A stretch of DNA of 64,000 nt from Haloarcula sp. CBA1127. Lineage in GTDB: Archaea > Halobacteriota > Halobacteria > Halobacteriales > Haloarculaceae. The DNA lies in assembly GCF_001485575.1 (NCBI RefSeq), contig NZ_BCNB01000006.1:1426001-1490000 (forward strand). Direction: 5' to 3'. Below the pieces are notes generated by a model. The model did not search any database, was not told the DNA's origin, and worked only from the letters and a program-made list of their open reading frames with translations. Made by a program: the position numbers and the translations under genes. Positions 50,868-56,817 of the stretch are shown here, piece by piece (within the stretch, counting starts at the first letter, position 1; each line of letters opens with the position of its first letter).

Positions 50868-50939
50868 ATGTCGGAACACCCGACGGAGGATAGAGGAAGT
50901 CGCCGCGAGGCGGCTGGCCGCGAAATTCGTGGCGCGTGA
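50868..50939 (+). CDS. Possible 23-aa leader peptide upstream of leuA
   Basis: The mini-ORF begins MSEHPTEDRGSRREAAG and ends REIRGA. Its ATG sits where a leaderless transcript from the 50834 TATA box would begin. Its stop lies 13 bp before the leuA GTG. The peptide is rich in Arg and Glu and has one Ile and no Leu or Val, so classic Leu-codon attenuation is not indicated. The mRNA contains a small perfect hairpin GCCGC-GAG-GCGGC at 50902-50914. Regulation by coupled translation is inference. Confidence 0.4.
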   Translation: MSEHPTEDRGSRREAAGREIRGA

Positions 50940-50952
50940 TGGAGCATCTTCT

Positions 50953-52497
50953 GTGAGTCAGAACACATTGTTCGAGGGGCACCCAGCGATGCGTGCGCTC
51001 TCAGATGTCGGTGAGGTACAGTTTCTCGACACGACACTGCGCGACGGTGAGCAAGCCCCCGGCGTCTCGCTGACGCCGGACGACAAGGCCGATATCGCCC
51101 GCTCGCTCGATGCGGCGCGTATCGATGTCATCGAGGCCGGAAGCGCCTGTACCGGGCCCGGCGAGCGCGAGACGATTTCCCGCGTCGCGGGGCTCGACCT
51201 CGACAGCACTGTCACCAGCTTCTGTCGTGGTATCCAGAACGATATCGACCTCGCGCTTGACTGTGGTGTCGACGGCATCAACCTCGTCGTCCCGGCCAGT
51301 GACAAGCACGTGGAACAGAAGGTCGGGACCTCCAAGAGCGAAAACGTCGACAACACCGTTGAACTGGTGGAGTACGCCGTCGACCACGGGCTCTGGGTCG
51401 AGGTCATCGGCGAGGACGGCTCGCGAGCCGATCTGGACTACCTCGAAGAACTGCTCGGCGCTGCCGTCGAGGCCGGCGCAGACCGCATCTGCTGGGCTGA
51501 CACTGTCGGCCACGCAACGCCGGACCGCGCGCTCGAATGCGTCTCCCGGCTCTCGGACCTGGGTCCGGTGAGCACGCACACCCACGATGATCTGGGGCTG
51601 GCGGTGACCAACGCGCTGGTCTCCATCGCGGCGGGCGCGGACCTCGTTCATGGGACGATAAACGGCATTGGCGAGCGCGCCGGCAACGTCGCCCTCGAAG
51701 AGGTCGCCATCGCGCTCGACCACGGCTACGGCGTCGAGTCGATGGCCCTCACCGAGGTGTACGATCTCGCCCAGCTCATCGCCAACCGGACCGGCATTCC
51801 GCTGGCTCCCAACAAGGCGGTCGTCGGCGAGAACGCCTTCACCCACGAGTCCGGTATCCACACCGACGGCACGCTCAAGGACGATTCGATGTACGAGCCG
51901 TACCCGCCGGAGAAGGTGGGCCGGGAACGCCGACTCGCGCTCGGTAAACACGCGGGCCGAGCCGGTGTCGAGGCGGCACTCGACGAGCACGACGTCGAGG
52001 TCACCGATGATCAGCTCTCGGAGGTCGTCAGTCGCGTCAAGGAGATCGGCGACCGCGGCAAGCGCGTCACCGACGCCGACCTACTGACCATCGCTGACGA
52101 GGTGACCGGTGAGGCCCGCGACCGCCGAGTCGAACTGCTCGGTCTGACCGCCGTTTCTGGCTCCGATACGCCGACTGCGAGCGTCCGGCTCGCGGTCGAC
52201 GGCGAGGAACGTAAGGAGGCAGCGGTCGGTTCCGGGCCGGTCGACGCCGCGATGAACGCCGCCGAGGTGGCACTGTCCCACACCGCCGATGCGACGCTCG
52301 AAGACTACCACGTTGACGCCATCACCGGCGGGACGGACGCACTCGTTACGGTCGAAATCGAGATGTCGCGCGGCGACGACCACGTCGTCGTCTCTGCCAG
52401 TGACTCGGACATCACGCGGGCGTCCGTGCGCGCGATGGTCGATGCGATGGACCGCCTCGTCGCCGACGACGAGGACACGCTTGTCGCCGACGACTGA
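50953..52497 (+). CDS. leuA: 2-isopropylmalate synthase / citramalate synthase family
   Basis: A 514-residue enzyme of the LeuA/CimA family that condenses acetyl-CoA with 2-oxoisovalerate (leucine) or pyruvate (isoleucine route). LDTTLRDGEQAPGV near the start carries the catalytic Arg-Asp. STHTHDDLGLAV holds metal His ligands and NGIGERAGNVALEE the family signature. The C-terminal domain from about residue 385 is the allosteric LeuA dimer domain. GTG 50953 is chosen because GGAG lies 8 bp upstream; GTG 50929 is the alternative. Whether it is LeuA or CimA cannot be decided by eye. Confidence 0.9.
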   Translation: MSQNTLFEGHPAMRALSDVGEVQFLDTTLRDGEQAPGVSLTPDDKADIARSLDAARIDVIEAGSACTGPGERETISRVAGLDLDSTVTSFCRGIQNDIDLALDCGVDGINLVVPASDKHVEQKVGTSKSENVDNTVELVEYAVDHGLWVEVIGEDGSRADLDYLEELLGAAVEAGADRICWADTVGHATPDRALECVSRLSDLGPVSTHTHDDLGLAVTNALVSIAAGADLVHGTINGIGERAGNVALEEVAIALDHGYGVESMALTEVYDLAQLIANRTGIPLAPNKAVVGENAFTHESGIHTDGTLKDDSMYEPYPPEKVGRERRLALGKHAGRAGVEAALDEHDVEVTDDQLSEVVSRVKEIGDRGKRVTDADLLTIADEVTGEARDRRVELLGLTAVSGSDTPTASVRLAVDGEERKEAAVGSGPVDAAMNAAEVALSHTADATLEDYHVDAITGGTDALVTVEIEMSRGDDHVVVSASDSDITRASVRAMVDAMDRLVADDEDTLVADD

Positions 52498-52571: not shown

Positions 52572-53540
52572 TTACTTGTGTCCGCGGCTGGCTTCGTGGT
52601 ACTGGAACACGGTTTCCATGCCCTCCACCAGCGCGTTGAGGTCGACACTGTCCGTGTCGAACTCACGATCACGAACGGATTGATAGATATCGGCCCACCG
52701 GTCTCGGAACCGGGCCTCGAACTGTTCGGCTTTGATTTTGTCGATGAGTTCGGCTTTCCCGTCGGGGTTTTCCAGCTCTTCAGGTGTGACGAACCCTTCT
52801 TGAAGGGCCAGCACAACGATTCCCGCGGTGTAGTCTCCCTCCCTGACTTCTCGTTCCCAGGTCGTGAGCCAGTTGCCGATGCGGGCCATCTCCTGCAGGT
52901 CCCAGATGAGGTCCCGGACCGTGCCGTAATCGGCGAGTTCGAACTCCGGCGAATACATGAGGTCAACGGCCGCGTAGGGGAACATTACCATGTTATGTGC
53001 CCCATATGTTTCCGCCCCGCTGAGGTTCGCAATCCGTGGGTTCTCGTTAACGACAGCGCTGTAGTCCATCGCGTTCAGCGTCTGTCGCATATCGTAGGTG
53101 AAAACGTCGTAGAACTCCTCAACACGCGGTGCGTCAGTCAGGCCCCCCTCGAACTCCCGCCACACACGCTCGATGAACGAGAAATATTCCTCGCTTACCG
53201 CCGCACGACTCGGGTCAACGGCTGACGGGTCCTGGACGAGGCGTCTGGCCTCTTCGAAGGTGTCTCGGTCCCCGTCGTTCTCGACGATGTCGTCCAGAAT
53301 CGTGACGTACATCGTGAGTATCGTCTTCTGCGTCCGGACGTGGTCGGCGTGGTCCGGGTGGACAGAGGAGAGCGTGAATTCGGGGAACAGCGAGTAGATC
53401 CACTGCCAGAGGAACCGATCACGCTCGCCACAGACCCGTTCGTACTCGTCTGCCAGTTCTGCAACCTGATCCGGGAGGCTGGTTGTCCGAACCTCTTCAA
53501 GGAGGTCCTGTGCATCAACCGCCGGTGACTCAACACTCAT
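52572..53540 (-). CDS. Class I terpene-synthase-like protein (atypical)
   Basis: A 322-residue, mostly helical soluble protein. The aspartate-rich motif DDIVE is at 83-87 (TILDDIVEND), fitting DDxxD/E. The second motif NWLTTWERE is at 223-231, fitting NDxxSxxxE at N223, T227 and E231. It is followed by VREGDYTAGIVVLALQEGF, which fits the family's ExxxGD...LV pattern. The 140-residue spacing between motifs is canonical. The Arg normally about 46 residues before the second motif is E177 here, and the C-terminal RY pair reads QY (313-314). Metal binding looks kept while diphosphate sensing looks changed, so the substrate is uncertain. It is a lone gene with an AT-rich upstream gap. Confidence 0.65.
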   Translation of the reverse strand: MSVESPAVDAQDLLEEVRTTSLPDQVAELADEYERVCGERDRFLWQWIYSLFPEFTLSSVHPDHADHVRTQKTILTMYVTILDDIVENDGDRDTFEEARRLVQDPSAVDPSRAAVSEEYFSFIERVWREFEGGLTDAPRVEEFYDVFTYDMRQTLNAMDYSAVVNENPRIANLSGAETYGAHNMVMFPYAAVDLMYSPEFELADYGTVRDLIWDLQEMARIGNWLTTWEREVREGDYTAGIVVLALQEGFVTPEELENPDGKAELIDKIKAEQFEARFRDRWADIYQSVRDREFDTDSVDLNALVEGMETVFQYHEASRGHK

Positions 53541-53964
53541 TGTGACTGCCTCCCGATAGTTGCACCCTGAATATCGACACAGGCGGTAGAATAATGTTCA
53601 ATTAACTGGTGTTTGGATGCTTCTACTTCTTCAGATTGAACGGTCACTGCCTTGGCGCTCTTGCCCGACTGCGAGTCGGTTCCGATCAGTTGGTGTCCAC
53701 GGTCCATACATTCGAGAGGCGAAGTTGCGCTTATAGTGGTACTGACGTATGGGATGCTAGTAGTATACTATTAACAGAGTATTTGCTCGACTTTACTCCA
53801 ATTTACGTACCAGTTTTTCAATTGCTACCGCAAAAGAAATATCTACTTACTGAAAAATACCGGCAGGATCTGGGGTGAAGAGGCAAATAAGGTGATATTA
53901 ATTCTGTCATCGACAAGACGACTCACAACATAGAGTGCCAGCAGAACAGCCACGCGGAGCGCAG
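53541..53964. other. 424-bp AT-rich intergenic region, no gene seen
   Basis: Spacer upstream of the terpene-synthase-like gene. It is clearly AT-rich (for example 53750-53870). One open frame (53609-53878) has unusual codon use and no recognisable product, so it is not called. It should contain the promoter of the terpene-synthase-like gene and the 3' end of the HalOD1 gene. Confidence 0.5.
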
Positions 53965-54264
53965 TTACGCTTCGAGTCCAGTTGTCGCCGAGACATCACG
54001 GGACGGTGTCACCAGCACCGAACGATTCCCCTCGACCTCGATACGACAGCCAGCCATACTGAACACGACTAGCCCGTCAGGACTCGGAGTGCCATCCGTA
54101 TCGGGACGAAACAGCCGGTCCAGCGCATCAGGGTCGATACAGTCACTGATTCGGTCATCGAGGTCGACGGGGTCGACACCCAGTGTGTCAGCTACGGCGT
54201 GGACGATGGTTTCGCTCAGCGGTTCGTTGGGTGTCGGTCTGTAGACCAGTTTTGCCTGGGACAT
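53965..54264 (-). CDS. HalOD1 output-domain protein
   Basis: A 99-residue single HalOD1 domain, a presumed signalling output domain of haloarchaea. It starts MSQAKLVYRPTPNEPLSETIVHAVADTLGVDP and ends with the characteristic VVFSMAGCRIEVEGNRSVLV strand pair (each stretch shorter in the family consensus). ATG 54264 is preferred; a longer frame to 54327 exists. It lies 99 bp downstream of the Bat-type regulator on the same strand and may be functionally paired with it (inference). Confidence 0.8.
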   Translation of the reverse strand: MSQAKLVYRPTPNEPLSETIVHAVADTLGVDPVDLDDRISDCIDPDALDRLFRPDTDGTPSPDGLVVFSMAGCRIEVEGNRSVLVTPSRDVSATTGLEA

Positions 54265-54363
54265 GGTTCGTCGCTGTTTATCCCTTAATGAGTGATTGAA
54301 AAGGCGATTGTGGCTATACAGATACAATCCCCCGGACTGGTCACTAACACTATAGCGACGGTC

Positions 54364-56817
54364 TCAGATATCGCCGAACACGAGTTCGAGCAGTTTTCGC
54401 TCGCTGACGCGGAGGTGCCGGTTGACCGTCGGCTGTGACACATCCAGGCTGGACGCGATTTCCTGACCGGTCGTCTCCCGGGGCCAGTCGAAGAAGCCAC
54501 TCAGATACGCCGTCTGGAGTACTTCGAGTTGTCTGTCGGTGAGTTGCTTCTCCAGTGCCGACCGGACTGTACTGTCCCGCTGGCCATCGGATTGTGTGCC
54601 GTCACGGCGCGCGATCAGCGTGACGTCCGCGTAGCGCTCGCCGAGTTGTTCGACGAACTGGCGGACATCGGTTTCGCCCGAGACGACAACTGTCACCGTG
54701 AGTCCGCCCGTCGACGTTCGGATCGTTTTCAACCGCCCGCCCTGTTCCAGTAGCGTCTCCGCGACGGTCTGGCCCGTCACGATGACCTCGTAAAGGCCGT
54801 CCAACTGGTCGGTCGAGATCGCTCGCGTGGTGTCGACACGAGCCATCGACAGTAACTGCTCCTTCACGACAGCCGGGTCACAGTCCGAGATAGTGAGGAA
54901 GAGACGAATCGCCCCGTCGCTCCGCTGTACGGCCCCCTCACAGACGACCGGGACGCCGACCCGGTCTGAGAGGTGGGTCAGGAACGACTGCGGGGCCGAC
55001 AGCGATAGTTCGAGTTCGACGGTGCCGTCGCCGGCCCGCCGCTGTCGGGACTCGACCTCCCGTATCGCGTTCGCGATGGTTTCACCGAGTTCGGTGAATA
55101 CCTCCTGAAGCATCTCGTCGAACCCGTCTTCTTGCTGGGCGTACACCGTCAGGACGCCGTAGACGAAGTCGTCGTATTCGAGCGGGATGCTGAGCGCCGA
55201 CTGGAACTCGCGGGAGAGTGCCTCCGTCCGCCAGTGGTCGCCCCGGAGGTTGTCAGCCACCGACGGGACGATAGTCATCGCTTCGGACTGTGCAGTCTGG
55301 ACGGCCGGTGGTCCGCCCTCGCGCTCAAGCGACAGCGAGATGGCGTCCAGATAGCTGGCGGTGTCGCCCGCCCACGCTCTGGGGACGAGTTCCGTCGCGT
55401 CCTGTCGGCCGATCCAGGCAAAGGAGAACCACTGGGATTCGGCCAACTGATCACACACCGCCTGCTCGATCTCCTCGGTGGTCTCCGCTTCGACGAGCAC
55501 CTGATCGATTCGTCGGATGATCGCGTTGACCTGCTTGAGCCGTCGCAGTTCACGGTTCTGTTCGCGGCGCTCGGCCTCGCGTTCGCGGAGCGTCGTCTCG
55601 CGGTCGACACGAGCGAGCGCGGCTTCGGCGCTGGCGGCGAGCAAGTCCACCATCTCCCGGGTTCTGGCGTCGCTGTGTTGCTCGCCCAGTTCGATGTAGA
55701 ACACGCCATGATCTTCGAGCGGAATGCAGAGCCGCTTCGCGTCCGCTGTAACCGGCCCCGCCCCGAGGTCGATGCGCTCGCCGGGAGCGACCTCGACGGC
55801 GCTGTCCTGCACGAACACGTCCCACACTGTGCTCTCGCCCGGCCCAACTGACGCGCTTCGGTCCGCCTCGGTGTCGCCGACGCTACGAAGAGTGTTGTCG
55901 CTGCGGTCGAACAGGTAGATCTCCACGTCGGGGAGTTCCAGCACGTCGACGGCCGTATCGAGTATCTGTTCGGCCACGGCTGTCTTGGTCTCCGTGTGCA
56001 GCAGCTTTCTGGTCGACTCGTGCAGCGCCGCGAGCGTCTCCTCGAACCGCTTCCGGTCCGAGATGTCCCGAACGACGCCGACCTGCCGGTAGCTCCCGTC
56101 CTCACGGTCGTACGTCGTGAATTTGGTTTCGATCGGCAGCGTGTCCCCGTCAGCGGTTCTGAGGTCCGTCGTCAGCGTGCCGACATCGCGCTCACCCTCG
56201 ATGAACTGCCGCGACATCTCTGCGGCCTCCTCGATGACGGATTCGTCCGCCAGCAGCGTCGCGTTCGACCCGACCAGCGTGTCCTTGTCGTAACCGGTCA
56301 TCGACTCGACGGCGCTGTTGACCGTCTGCATCGTGAACGCCTCGTCAAGTGTGTAGATGCCGTCCTCGATGGTCTCGACGATCCGTTCGTACTGTTCGAG
56401 CATCTCCGTCCGCTCATGGCGCTCGGTGATGTCGTGGACGATACCCAGGTACAGTTCCTCACCGTCCCATTGCTGGGGCTCGAAGGCGATTTCGACCCAC
56501 CGTTCCGTGTCGCCGGCGGAACACGATGACGTTAGCGGTGTTCCCGGTGATTGACTACAGTGGGCTCTGAGGTCAACGTCATCCAGACCTGGGAAGAACG
56601 TACCTATCTGGCTTCCAAACACGTCCGACGGGTCCGAATCGAGGAGGTCACAGAGGTGGTCGTTCCCGGTCCGTATCTCCCCGTCAGCGGCAGAAACGAC
56701 CACTGGCTCGGGCATTCGCGCGGCGAGGGTCTCCAACAGCACAGGGGGGGACTGCTGTGCCGGTGTGTCACGTGCCGCTTGTTCGTTCTCATCCGTTCCA
56801 CCGACCGGCTTCTCCAT
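54364..56817 (-). CDS. Bat-type PAS/GAF sensor with HTH_10 DNA-binding domain
   Basis: An 817-residue signal-dependent transcription regulator like bacterio-opsin activator. PAS 1 spans about 27-130 and PAS 2 about 140-260 (ends VGVVRDISDRKRFEE). A GAF-like domain spans about 270-400, followed by a charged coiled coil REREAERREQNRELRR and a second GAF at about 435-595. The BAT domain is at about 620-750. The HTH_10 domain is at the C-terminus (LTDRQLEVLQTAYLSGFFDWPR, then LDVSQPTVNRHLR, each part of the domain). No kinase domain. Target genes unknown. Confidence 0.93.
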   Translation of the reverse strand: MEKPVGGTDENEQAARDTPAQQSPPVLLETLAARMPEPVVVSAADGEIRTGNDHLCDLLDSDPSDVFGSQIGTFFPGLDDVDLRAHCSQSPGTPLTSSCSAGDTERWVEIAFEPQQWDGEELYLGIVHDITERHERTEMLEQYERIVETIEDGIYTLDEAFTMQTVNSAVESMTGYDKDTLVGSNATLLADESVIEEAAEMSRQFIEGERDVGTLTTDLRTADGDTLPIETKFTTYDREDGSYRQVGVVRDISDRKRFEETLAALHESTRKLLHTETKTAVAEQILDTAVDVLELPDVEIYLFDRSDNTLRSVGDTEADRSASVGPGESTVWDVFVQDSAVEVAPGERIDLGAGPVTADAKRLCIPLEDHGVFYIELGEQHSDARTREMVDLLAASAEAALARVDRETTLREREAERREQNRELRRLKQVNAIIRRIDQVLVEAETTEEIEQAVCDQLAESQWFSFAWIGRQDATELVPRAWAGDTASYLDAISLSLEREGGPPAVQTAQSEAMTIVPSVADNLRGDHWRTEALSREFQSALSIPLEYDDFVYGVLTVYAQQEDGFDEMLQEVFTELGETIANAIREVESRQRRAGDGTVELELSLSAPQSFLTHLSDRVGVPVVCEGAVQRSDGAIRLFLTISDCDPAVVKEQLLSMARVDTTRAISTDQLDGLYEVIVTGQTVAETLLEQGGRLKTIRTSTGGLTVTVVVSGETDVRQFVEQLGERYADVTLIARRDGTQSDGQRDSTVRSALEKQLTDRQLEVLQTAYLSGFFDWPRETTGQEIASSLDVSQPTVNRHLRVSERKLLELVFGDI

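Follow-up and report, generated by a model that had tools for sequence, protein, structure and literature searches.

A divergent class I terpene-synthase-like family, recognised by motifs and predicted fold, recurs beside signalling genes in haloarchaea

Introduction

Can a haloarchaeal protein that carries both metal motifs of a class I terpene synthase, and lacks the residues that usually sense the diphosphate, still be such an enzyme, and what do its neighbours say about its role? The question arises at a locus of Haloarcula sp. CBA1127, in a 64,000-nucleotide stretch of contig NZ_BCNB01000006.1 (hereafter the window, whose own numbering is used throughout). In class I synthases the diphosphate is bound through a trinuclear Mg cluster held by the DDxxD/E and NSE/DTE motifs, with help from basic residues, and ionisation is triggered by an effector triad (PMC10563020). 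The original prediction for this locus described intact metal motifs and altered diphosphate sensors in a type of protein that it considered rare in archaea.

Results

The terpene-synthase-like ORF encodes 322 aa on the minus strand at 52572..53540, with its ATG at 53540 and its stop at 52572-52574; the original prediction gave the same span and no strand. Orthologues align with the window protein from residue 1, which supports the ATG start. Comparison with six Haloarcula orthologues gave dN/dS values of ~0.04-0.10, which indicates strong purifying selection and hence a functional gene. In the search with Terpene_syn_C_2 (PF19086, Pfam-A) that had been proposed as a check, the protein scored above the curated cut-off (E = 8.1e-8; 32.7 vs 23.7 bits), and it is the only match to this model in the window genome. 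No NCBIfam family was found for it, and searching the PDB by sequence (phmmer and a profile search) returned no meaningful relative.

Structure prediction followed by Foldseek, the other computational check proposed, pointed to the all-alpha class I terpenoid-synthase fold. The AlphaFold2 model, computed with 29 family members, is all helical (pLDDT 92.8, pTM 0.91), and its top match in the PDB is 10-epi-cubebol synthase (7ZRN; E 6.3e-5, TM 0.55-0.58, probability 1.00). Aristolochene, hydropyrene and geosmin synthases, among others, come next, at TM values of only about 0.5-0.6 and with large rmsd. In all, 22 PDB entries match at E <= 0.001; class I terpene synthases head the list, which also contains farnesyl diphosphate synthases. 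The model of a homologue from another family of the phylum that is only 19% identical (L123; pLDDT 85.6) likewise finds terpene synthases first, with a best E of 1.3e-3. By predicted fold and metal motifs, the protein is thus assigned to the class I terpenoid synthase superfamily.

The metal motifs, as read from the translation, are where the original prediction had placed them. The first, D83-D84-I-V-E87 (DDxxE), lies at 53280..53294 on the minus strand; the second, N223-W-L-T-T227-W-E-R-E231, belongs to the NSE/DTE type but has W where D is usual (52848..52874, minus) and is followed by E234-G-D236 (52833..52841, minus). Conservation was counted in 55 non-redundant full-length members (<85% identity), a set from which fragmentary and broken copies and those that diverge most (L023, L121-L124) were excluded. 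Here D84, E/D87, N223, T/S227 and E231 are each present in 55/55 and D83 in 53/55, such that the predicted Mg ligands are essentially invariant. R230 is likewise found in 55/55, and R40, W45, W47, D193, R209, R220, W224, W228, D236 and D300 are further invariants. The predicted 140-residue gap between the motifs is shared by 39 members, more than any other spacing in the family, and falls inside the 135-147 range of 11/12 canonical synthases; in the twelfth the gap is 183, and its first motif was probably mis-picked. Taken together, the Pfam score, the fold match, the family-wide conservation of the motifs, their spacing and the dN/dS values make the motif match more than chance.

The diphosphate sensors are a different matter. 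E177 (53010..53012, minus) stands 46 residues ahead of N223, at the site of the canonical pyrophosphate-sensor Arg; it was placed by motif spacing, as profile-profile alignment to canonical synthases is weak and shifts by ~3 residues near the sensor. In the AlphaFold2 model the helix is interrupted at 179 and 185, a possible counterpart of the canonical G1/G2 break that carries the effector. At the C-terminus, Q313-Y314 (52599..52604, minus) replaces the canonical Arg-Tyr. In canonical synthases an Arg is found at N-46 or within one residue of it in 12/12, and R[YF] occurs 87-96 residues after the NSE motif in 12/12. The absence of the sensor Arg and of RY from the window protein, as originally described, therefore stands, and without these two defining features it is not a canonical bacterial-type member. 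What does not hold is the idea of a specific substitution. Among the 55 members the N-46 residue is E in 13, R in 11, W in 9 and T in 8, with L, K, Q and Y also seen, while R occupies 313 in 13/55 and Y occupies 314 in 31/55, making RY a minority at most. Both sites thus vary across the family, so that the change is one of lost constraint, and selection keeps the metal site and not the sensor residues.

One basic residue behaves in the opposite way. R220 (52881..52883, minus), three residues ahead of N223, is present in 55/55 members and in 0/12 canonical synthases. Placed a single helical turn ahead of N223, it should project from much the same side of the helix, and is a candidate stand-in that could contact the diphosphate. 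The original prediction overlooked this invariant Arg, as it did the neighbouring genes described below.

The view that such proteins are rare in archaea is not supported. The family occurs in 120/391 sampled genomes of the Halobacteria class (31%) and in 46/146 genomes of the window's own family of organisms, and a phylum-wide sample gave matches outside the class as well (families f13, f15 and f29), whose carriers are probably methanogens. Close homologues are found in Haloarcula, Halomicroarcula, Halorientalis, Halosimplex, Haladaptatus, Halobaculum and several Halobacteriales MAGs. Among plasmid records that bear names, the homologues from Halobaculum, Halobellus, two Halorussus, Salinigranum and Natrinema are labelled 'hypothetical protein'. 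Some divergent members score below the PF19086 cut-off, and the most divergent one has no Pfam match at all. We found no description of the family in the open-access literature searched, and no homologue on viral contigs; by fold, the sole viral match was a distant terpenoid synthase. This is a conserved, unannotated archaeal family, not a rarity.

Some copies look broken, with the match split or containing a stop and intact in relatives (L023; genomes G056, G175, G413 and G654). Tandem copies at L153 (G359) and copies ~9 kb apart at L159 (G057) suggest local duplication. Long ORFs were also inspected for domain fusions, and their N-terminal extensions look spurious.

Upstream of the synthase-like gene, on the same minus strand, are a stand-alone HalOD1 (halobacterial output domain 1) gene (53965..54327; PF18545, E = 3.3e-23) and a bat-type regulator gene of PAS-PAS-GAF-BAT-HTH_10 type (54364..56817; PF15915, E = 7.4e-30; PF04967, E = 3.6e-19; two stretches each of PAS and GAF), giving the order bat-type regulator, HalOD1, synthase-like gene. 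The window genome contains 8 HalOD1 and 16 BAT domains that pass the cut-off, so at a single locus such an adjacency could conceivably, though improbably, arise by chance; the argument lies in recurrence. The convergent downstream leuA (50929-52497) was considered as part of a module and rejected; the same arrangement is seen in several Haloarcula and is absent from the more distant loci examined. The gap between HalOD1 and the synthase-like gene is 424 bp (53541-53964). It holds GGTAC-type half sites, ACTGGTACGTA and AGTACCACT, that are conserved among Haloarcula and could form a putative operator. Alignment of the upstream DNA showed conservation within Haloarcula only, and no clear shared operator site was found.

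The bat-HalOD1-synthase order recurs in Haloarcula, Halomicroarcula, Halorientalis and several MAGs. In Halobaculum the three genes are rearranged (synthase, bat, HalOD1) yet together, and they also stay together in Halobellus, where bat and HalOD1 are divergent. Elsewhere the partner changes: the Halorussus gene overlaps or abuts a helix-turn-helix regulator (of FilR1-middle type in sister loci), with HalOD1 ~1 kb on, and in Salinigranum, Haladaptatus and others a PAS histidine kinase adjoins it. Outside the class, PAS kinases are near the gene in L116, L117, L123 and L124, and not in L118-L120.

We counted neighbours in 68 independent loci, defined by proteins <70% identical. At least one of four regulator classes (bat-type, HalOD1, FilR1-type and PAS kinase) lies within 2 kb in 32/68, a count from which divergent bat genes drop out if their diagnostic C-terminal domain falls beyond 2 kb; about half of the loci, and most Natrialbaceae-like (f3) ones, have none within that distance. 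Class-locus hits number 45 in 272 kb near the gene vs 26 in 449 kb farther out, with FilR1-type regulators at 10 near vs 0 far and kinases at 12 vs 3, although the search models derive from genes found next to the synthase-like gene, which biases them toward near hits. The recurrent neighbours are signalling genes, not prenyl synthases or P450s.

Other neighbours were seen in a few places. At L128:4956-7611 (G242) a divergent member is followed within ~50 bp by a protoglobin-MCP (aerotaxis-type) transducer. In two distant groups a metallo-beta-lactamase-fold gene turns up as well: it adjoins the family gene in four Natrialbaceae-like loci (L136, L137, L139 and L140) and lies ~3-4 kb from it in L118 and L120, which may be chance.

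Discussion

We suggest that the window protein is a divergent class I terpene-synthase-type, Mg-dependent diphosphate lyase that makes an isoprenoid and is tied to signal transduction, a reading that the motifs, the model and the gene neighbourhoods make reasonably probable. In such an enzyme DDxxE and NxxxTxxxE would hold the Mg2+ cluster, binding and ionising an isoprenoid diphosphate, in the cell most likely FPP or GGPP; from it a small terpenoid, either a hydrocarbon or an alcohol, would be made. The activity or substrate may be new, as the original prediction suggested. As the metal site is complete without the usual sensors, either other residues recognise the diphosphate and trigger the reaction, or the chemistry differs. 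In the first case Arg220 and Arg230, perhaps with Lys72, would probably take over diphosphate recognition, leaving the usual sensor Arg and Arg-Tyr unused. The signalling partners, which are the bat-type regulator and HalOD1 at this locus and a FilR1-type regulator or PAS histidine kinase at others, probably control expression or respond to the product. This regulatory company suggests that production is tightly controlled, or that the product itself is sensed.

Different chemistry is the strongest of the alternatives, and we think it unlikely but worth serious attention. The same fold and Mg-diphosphate chemistry could serve a prenyltransferase acting on a polar acceptor, as in the terpene-synthase-fold N-prenyltransferases DabA (6VKZ) and DsKabA (9M1W), or a prenyl-diphosphate hydrolase. 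In favour of this, the sensor Arg and RY are dispensable, and the family has a set of invariant or near-invariant polar residues without an obvious canonical counterpart (R40, K72, D150, Q153, D193, R209, Q216 and R220). DabA and DsKabA are also in the Foldseek list of the divergent L123, although the matches listed for the window protein include neither, and class I terpene synthases outrank prenyltransferases for both models. An enzyme or pathway that makes an acceptor was not found near the window gene.

A decidedly improbable alternative is that the protein has no catalytic role, and that a terpenoid-synthase fold binds Mg and an isoprenoid diphosphate and signals to the adjacent regulator. 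Loss of the sensor Arg and RY would fit this, as would the fact that the gene is repeatedly linked to signalling genes and not to further biosynthetic ones. Yet the Mg ligands are kept even in very divergent members, and no fusion to a signalling domain was found. That a haloarchaeon has simply taken up, in recent times, an ordinary terpene synthase of bacterial type is hardly credible despite the PF19086 score above the cut-off, since the family is far from bacterial synthases, has no PDB match by sequence, is spread over Halobacteria families and elsewhere in the phylum, and is separate from the canonical synthases that haloarchaea do have.

If the divergent lyase that we favour is active, it would stand for a widespread branch of class I terpene synthases in archaea, present in about one third of the sampled genomes of the Halobacteria class. 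Ionisation would also proceed in the absence of the sensor Arg and Arg-Tyr common to 12/12 canonical enzymes, which makes the requirement for these residues testable. The recurrent pairing with sensors and regulators gives a genetically testable lead on isoprenoid regulation or cell-cell signalling in archaea; a 2023 article calls haloarchaeal cell-cell signalling largely unexplored (PMC10223598). A bolder extension, which we offer as quite unlikely, is a terpenoid signalling module in which a diffusible or membrane isoprenoid would be sensed by the PAS/GAF domains of the bat-type regulator, by a FilR1-type regulator or by a PAS kinase. Were this true, haloarchaea would have a chemically tractable pair of signal synthase and receptor.

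Such a module would resemble the LuxI/LuxR and AfsA/ArpA pairs, where a lone gene for a small-molecule enzyme sits beside a regulator with ligand-binding-type domains. The likeness is one of function only, without sequence relation to the window system.

Closest among known enzymes are the bacterial and fungal class I synthases of PF19086, such as 7ZRN, hydropyrene synthase 8B4M, aristolochene synthase and T-muurolol synthase. With these the window protein shares the predicted all-alpha fold, the DDxxD/E and NSE/DTE-type motifs, their ~140-residue spacing and the Pfam match. It differs from them in lacking the N-46 Arg and the Arg-Tyr pair and in having NW for ND, and its family differs in carrying R220 at N-3, in several other invariants of its own, and in adjoining signalling genes in place of prenyl synthases and P450s.

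Canonical synthases with a class I terpene-synthase domain likewise exist in haloarchaea, as in Actinarchaeum halophilum (NZ_CP071308.1) and Halocatena marina (NZ_CP109980.1). We observed SRPBCC-fused canonical synthases at L054, L156, L173 and L174 (in these two records) and at L055 (G330), labelled merely 'SRPBCC family' or hypothetical protein. The PF19086 scores of such copies in G038 and G330 are 136-170 bits, compared with 32.7 for the window protein. Unlike the window family, the Actinarchaeum and Halocatena proteins have an N-terminal SRPBCC fusion, a complete NDxxSxxxE and R[YF]. On their plasmids a polyprenyl synthetase adjoins the SRPBCC-terpene synthase, as in Streptomyces clusters, whereas the window family keeps the company of sensors and regulators.
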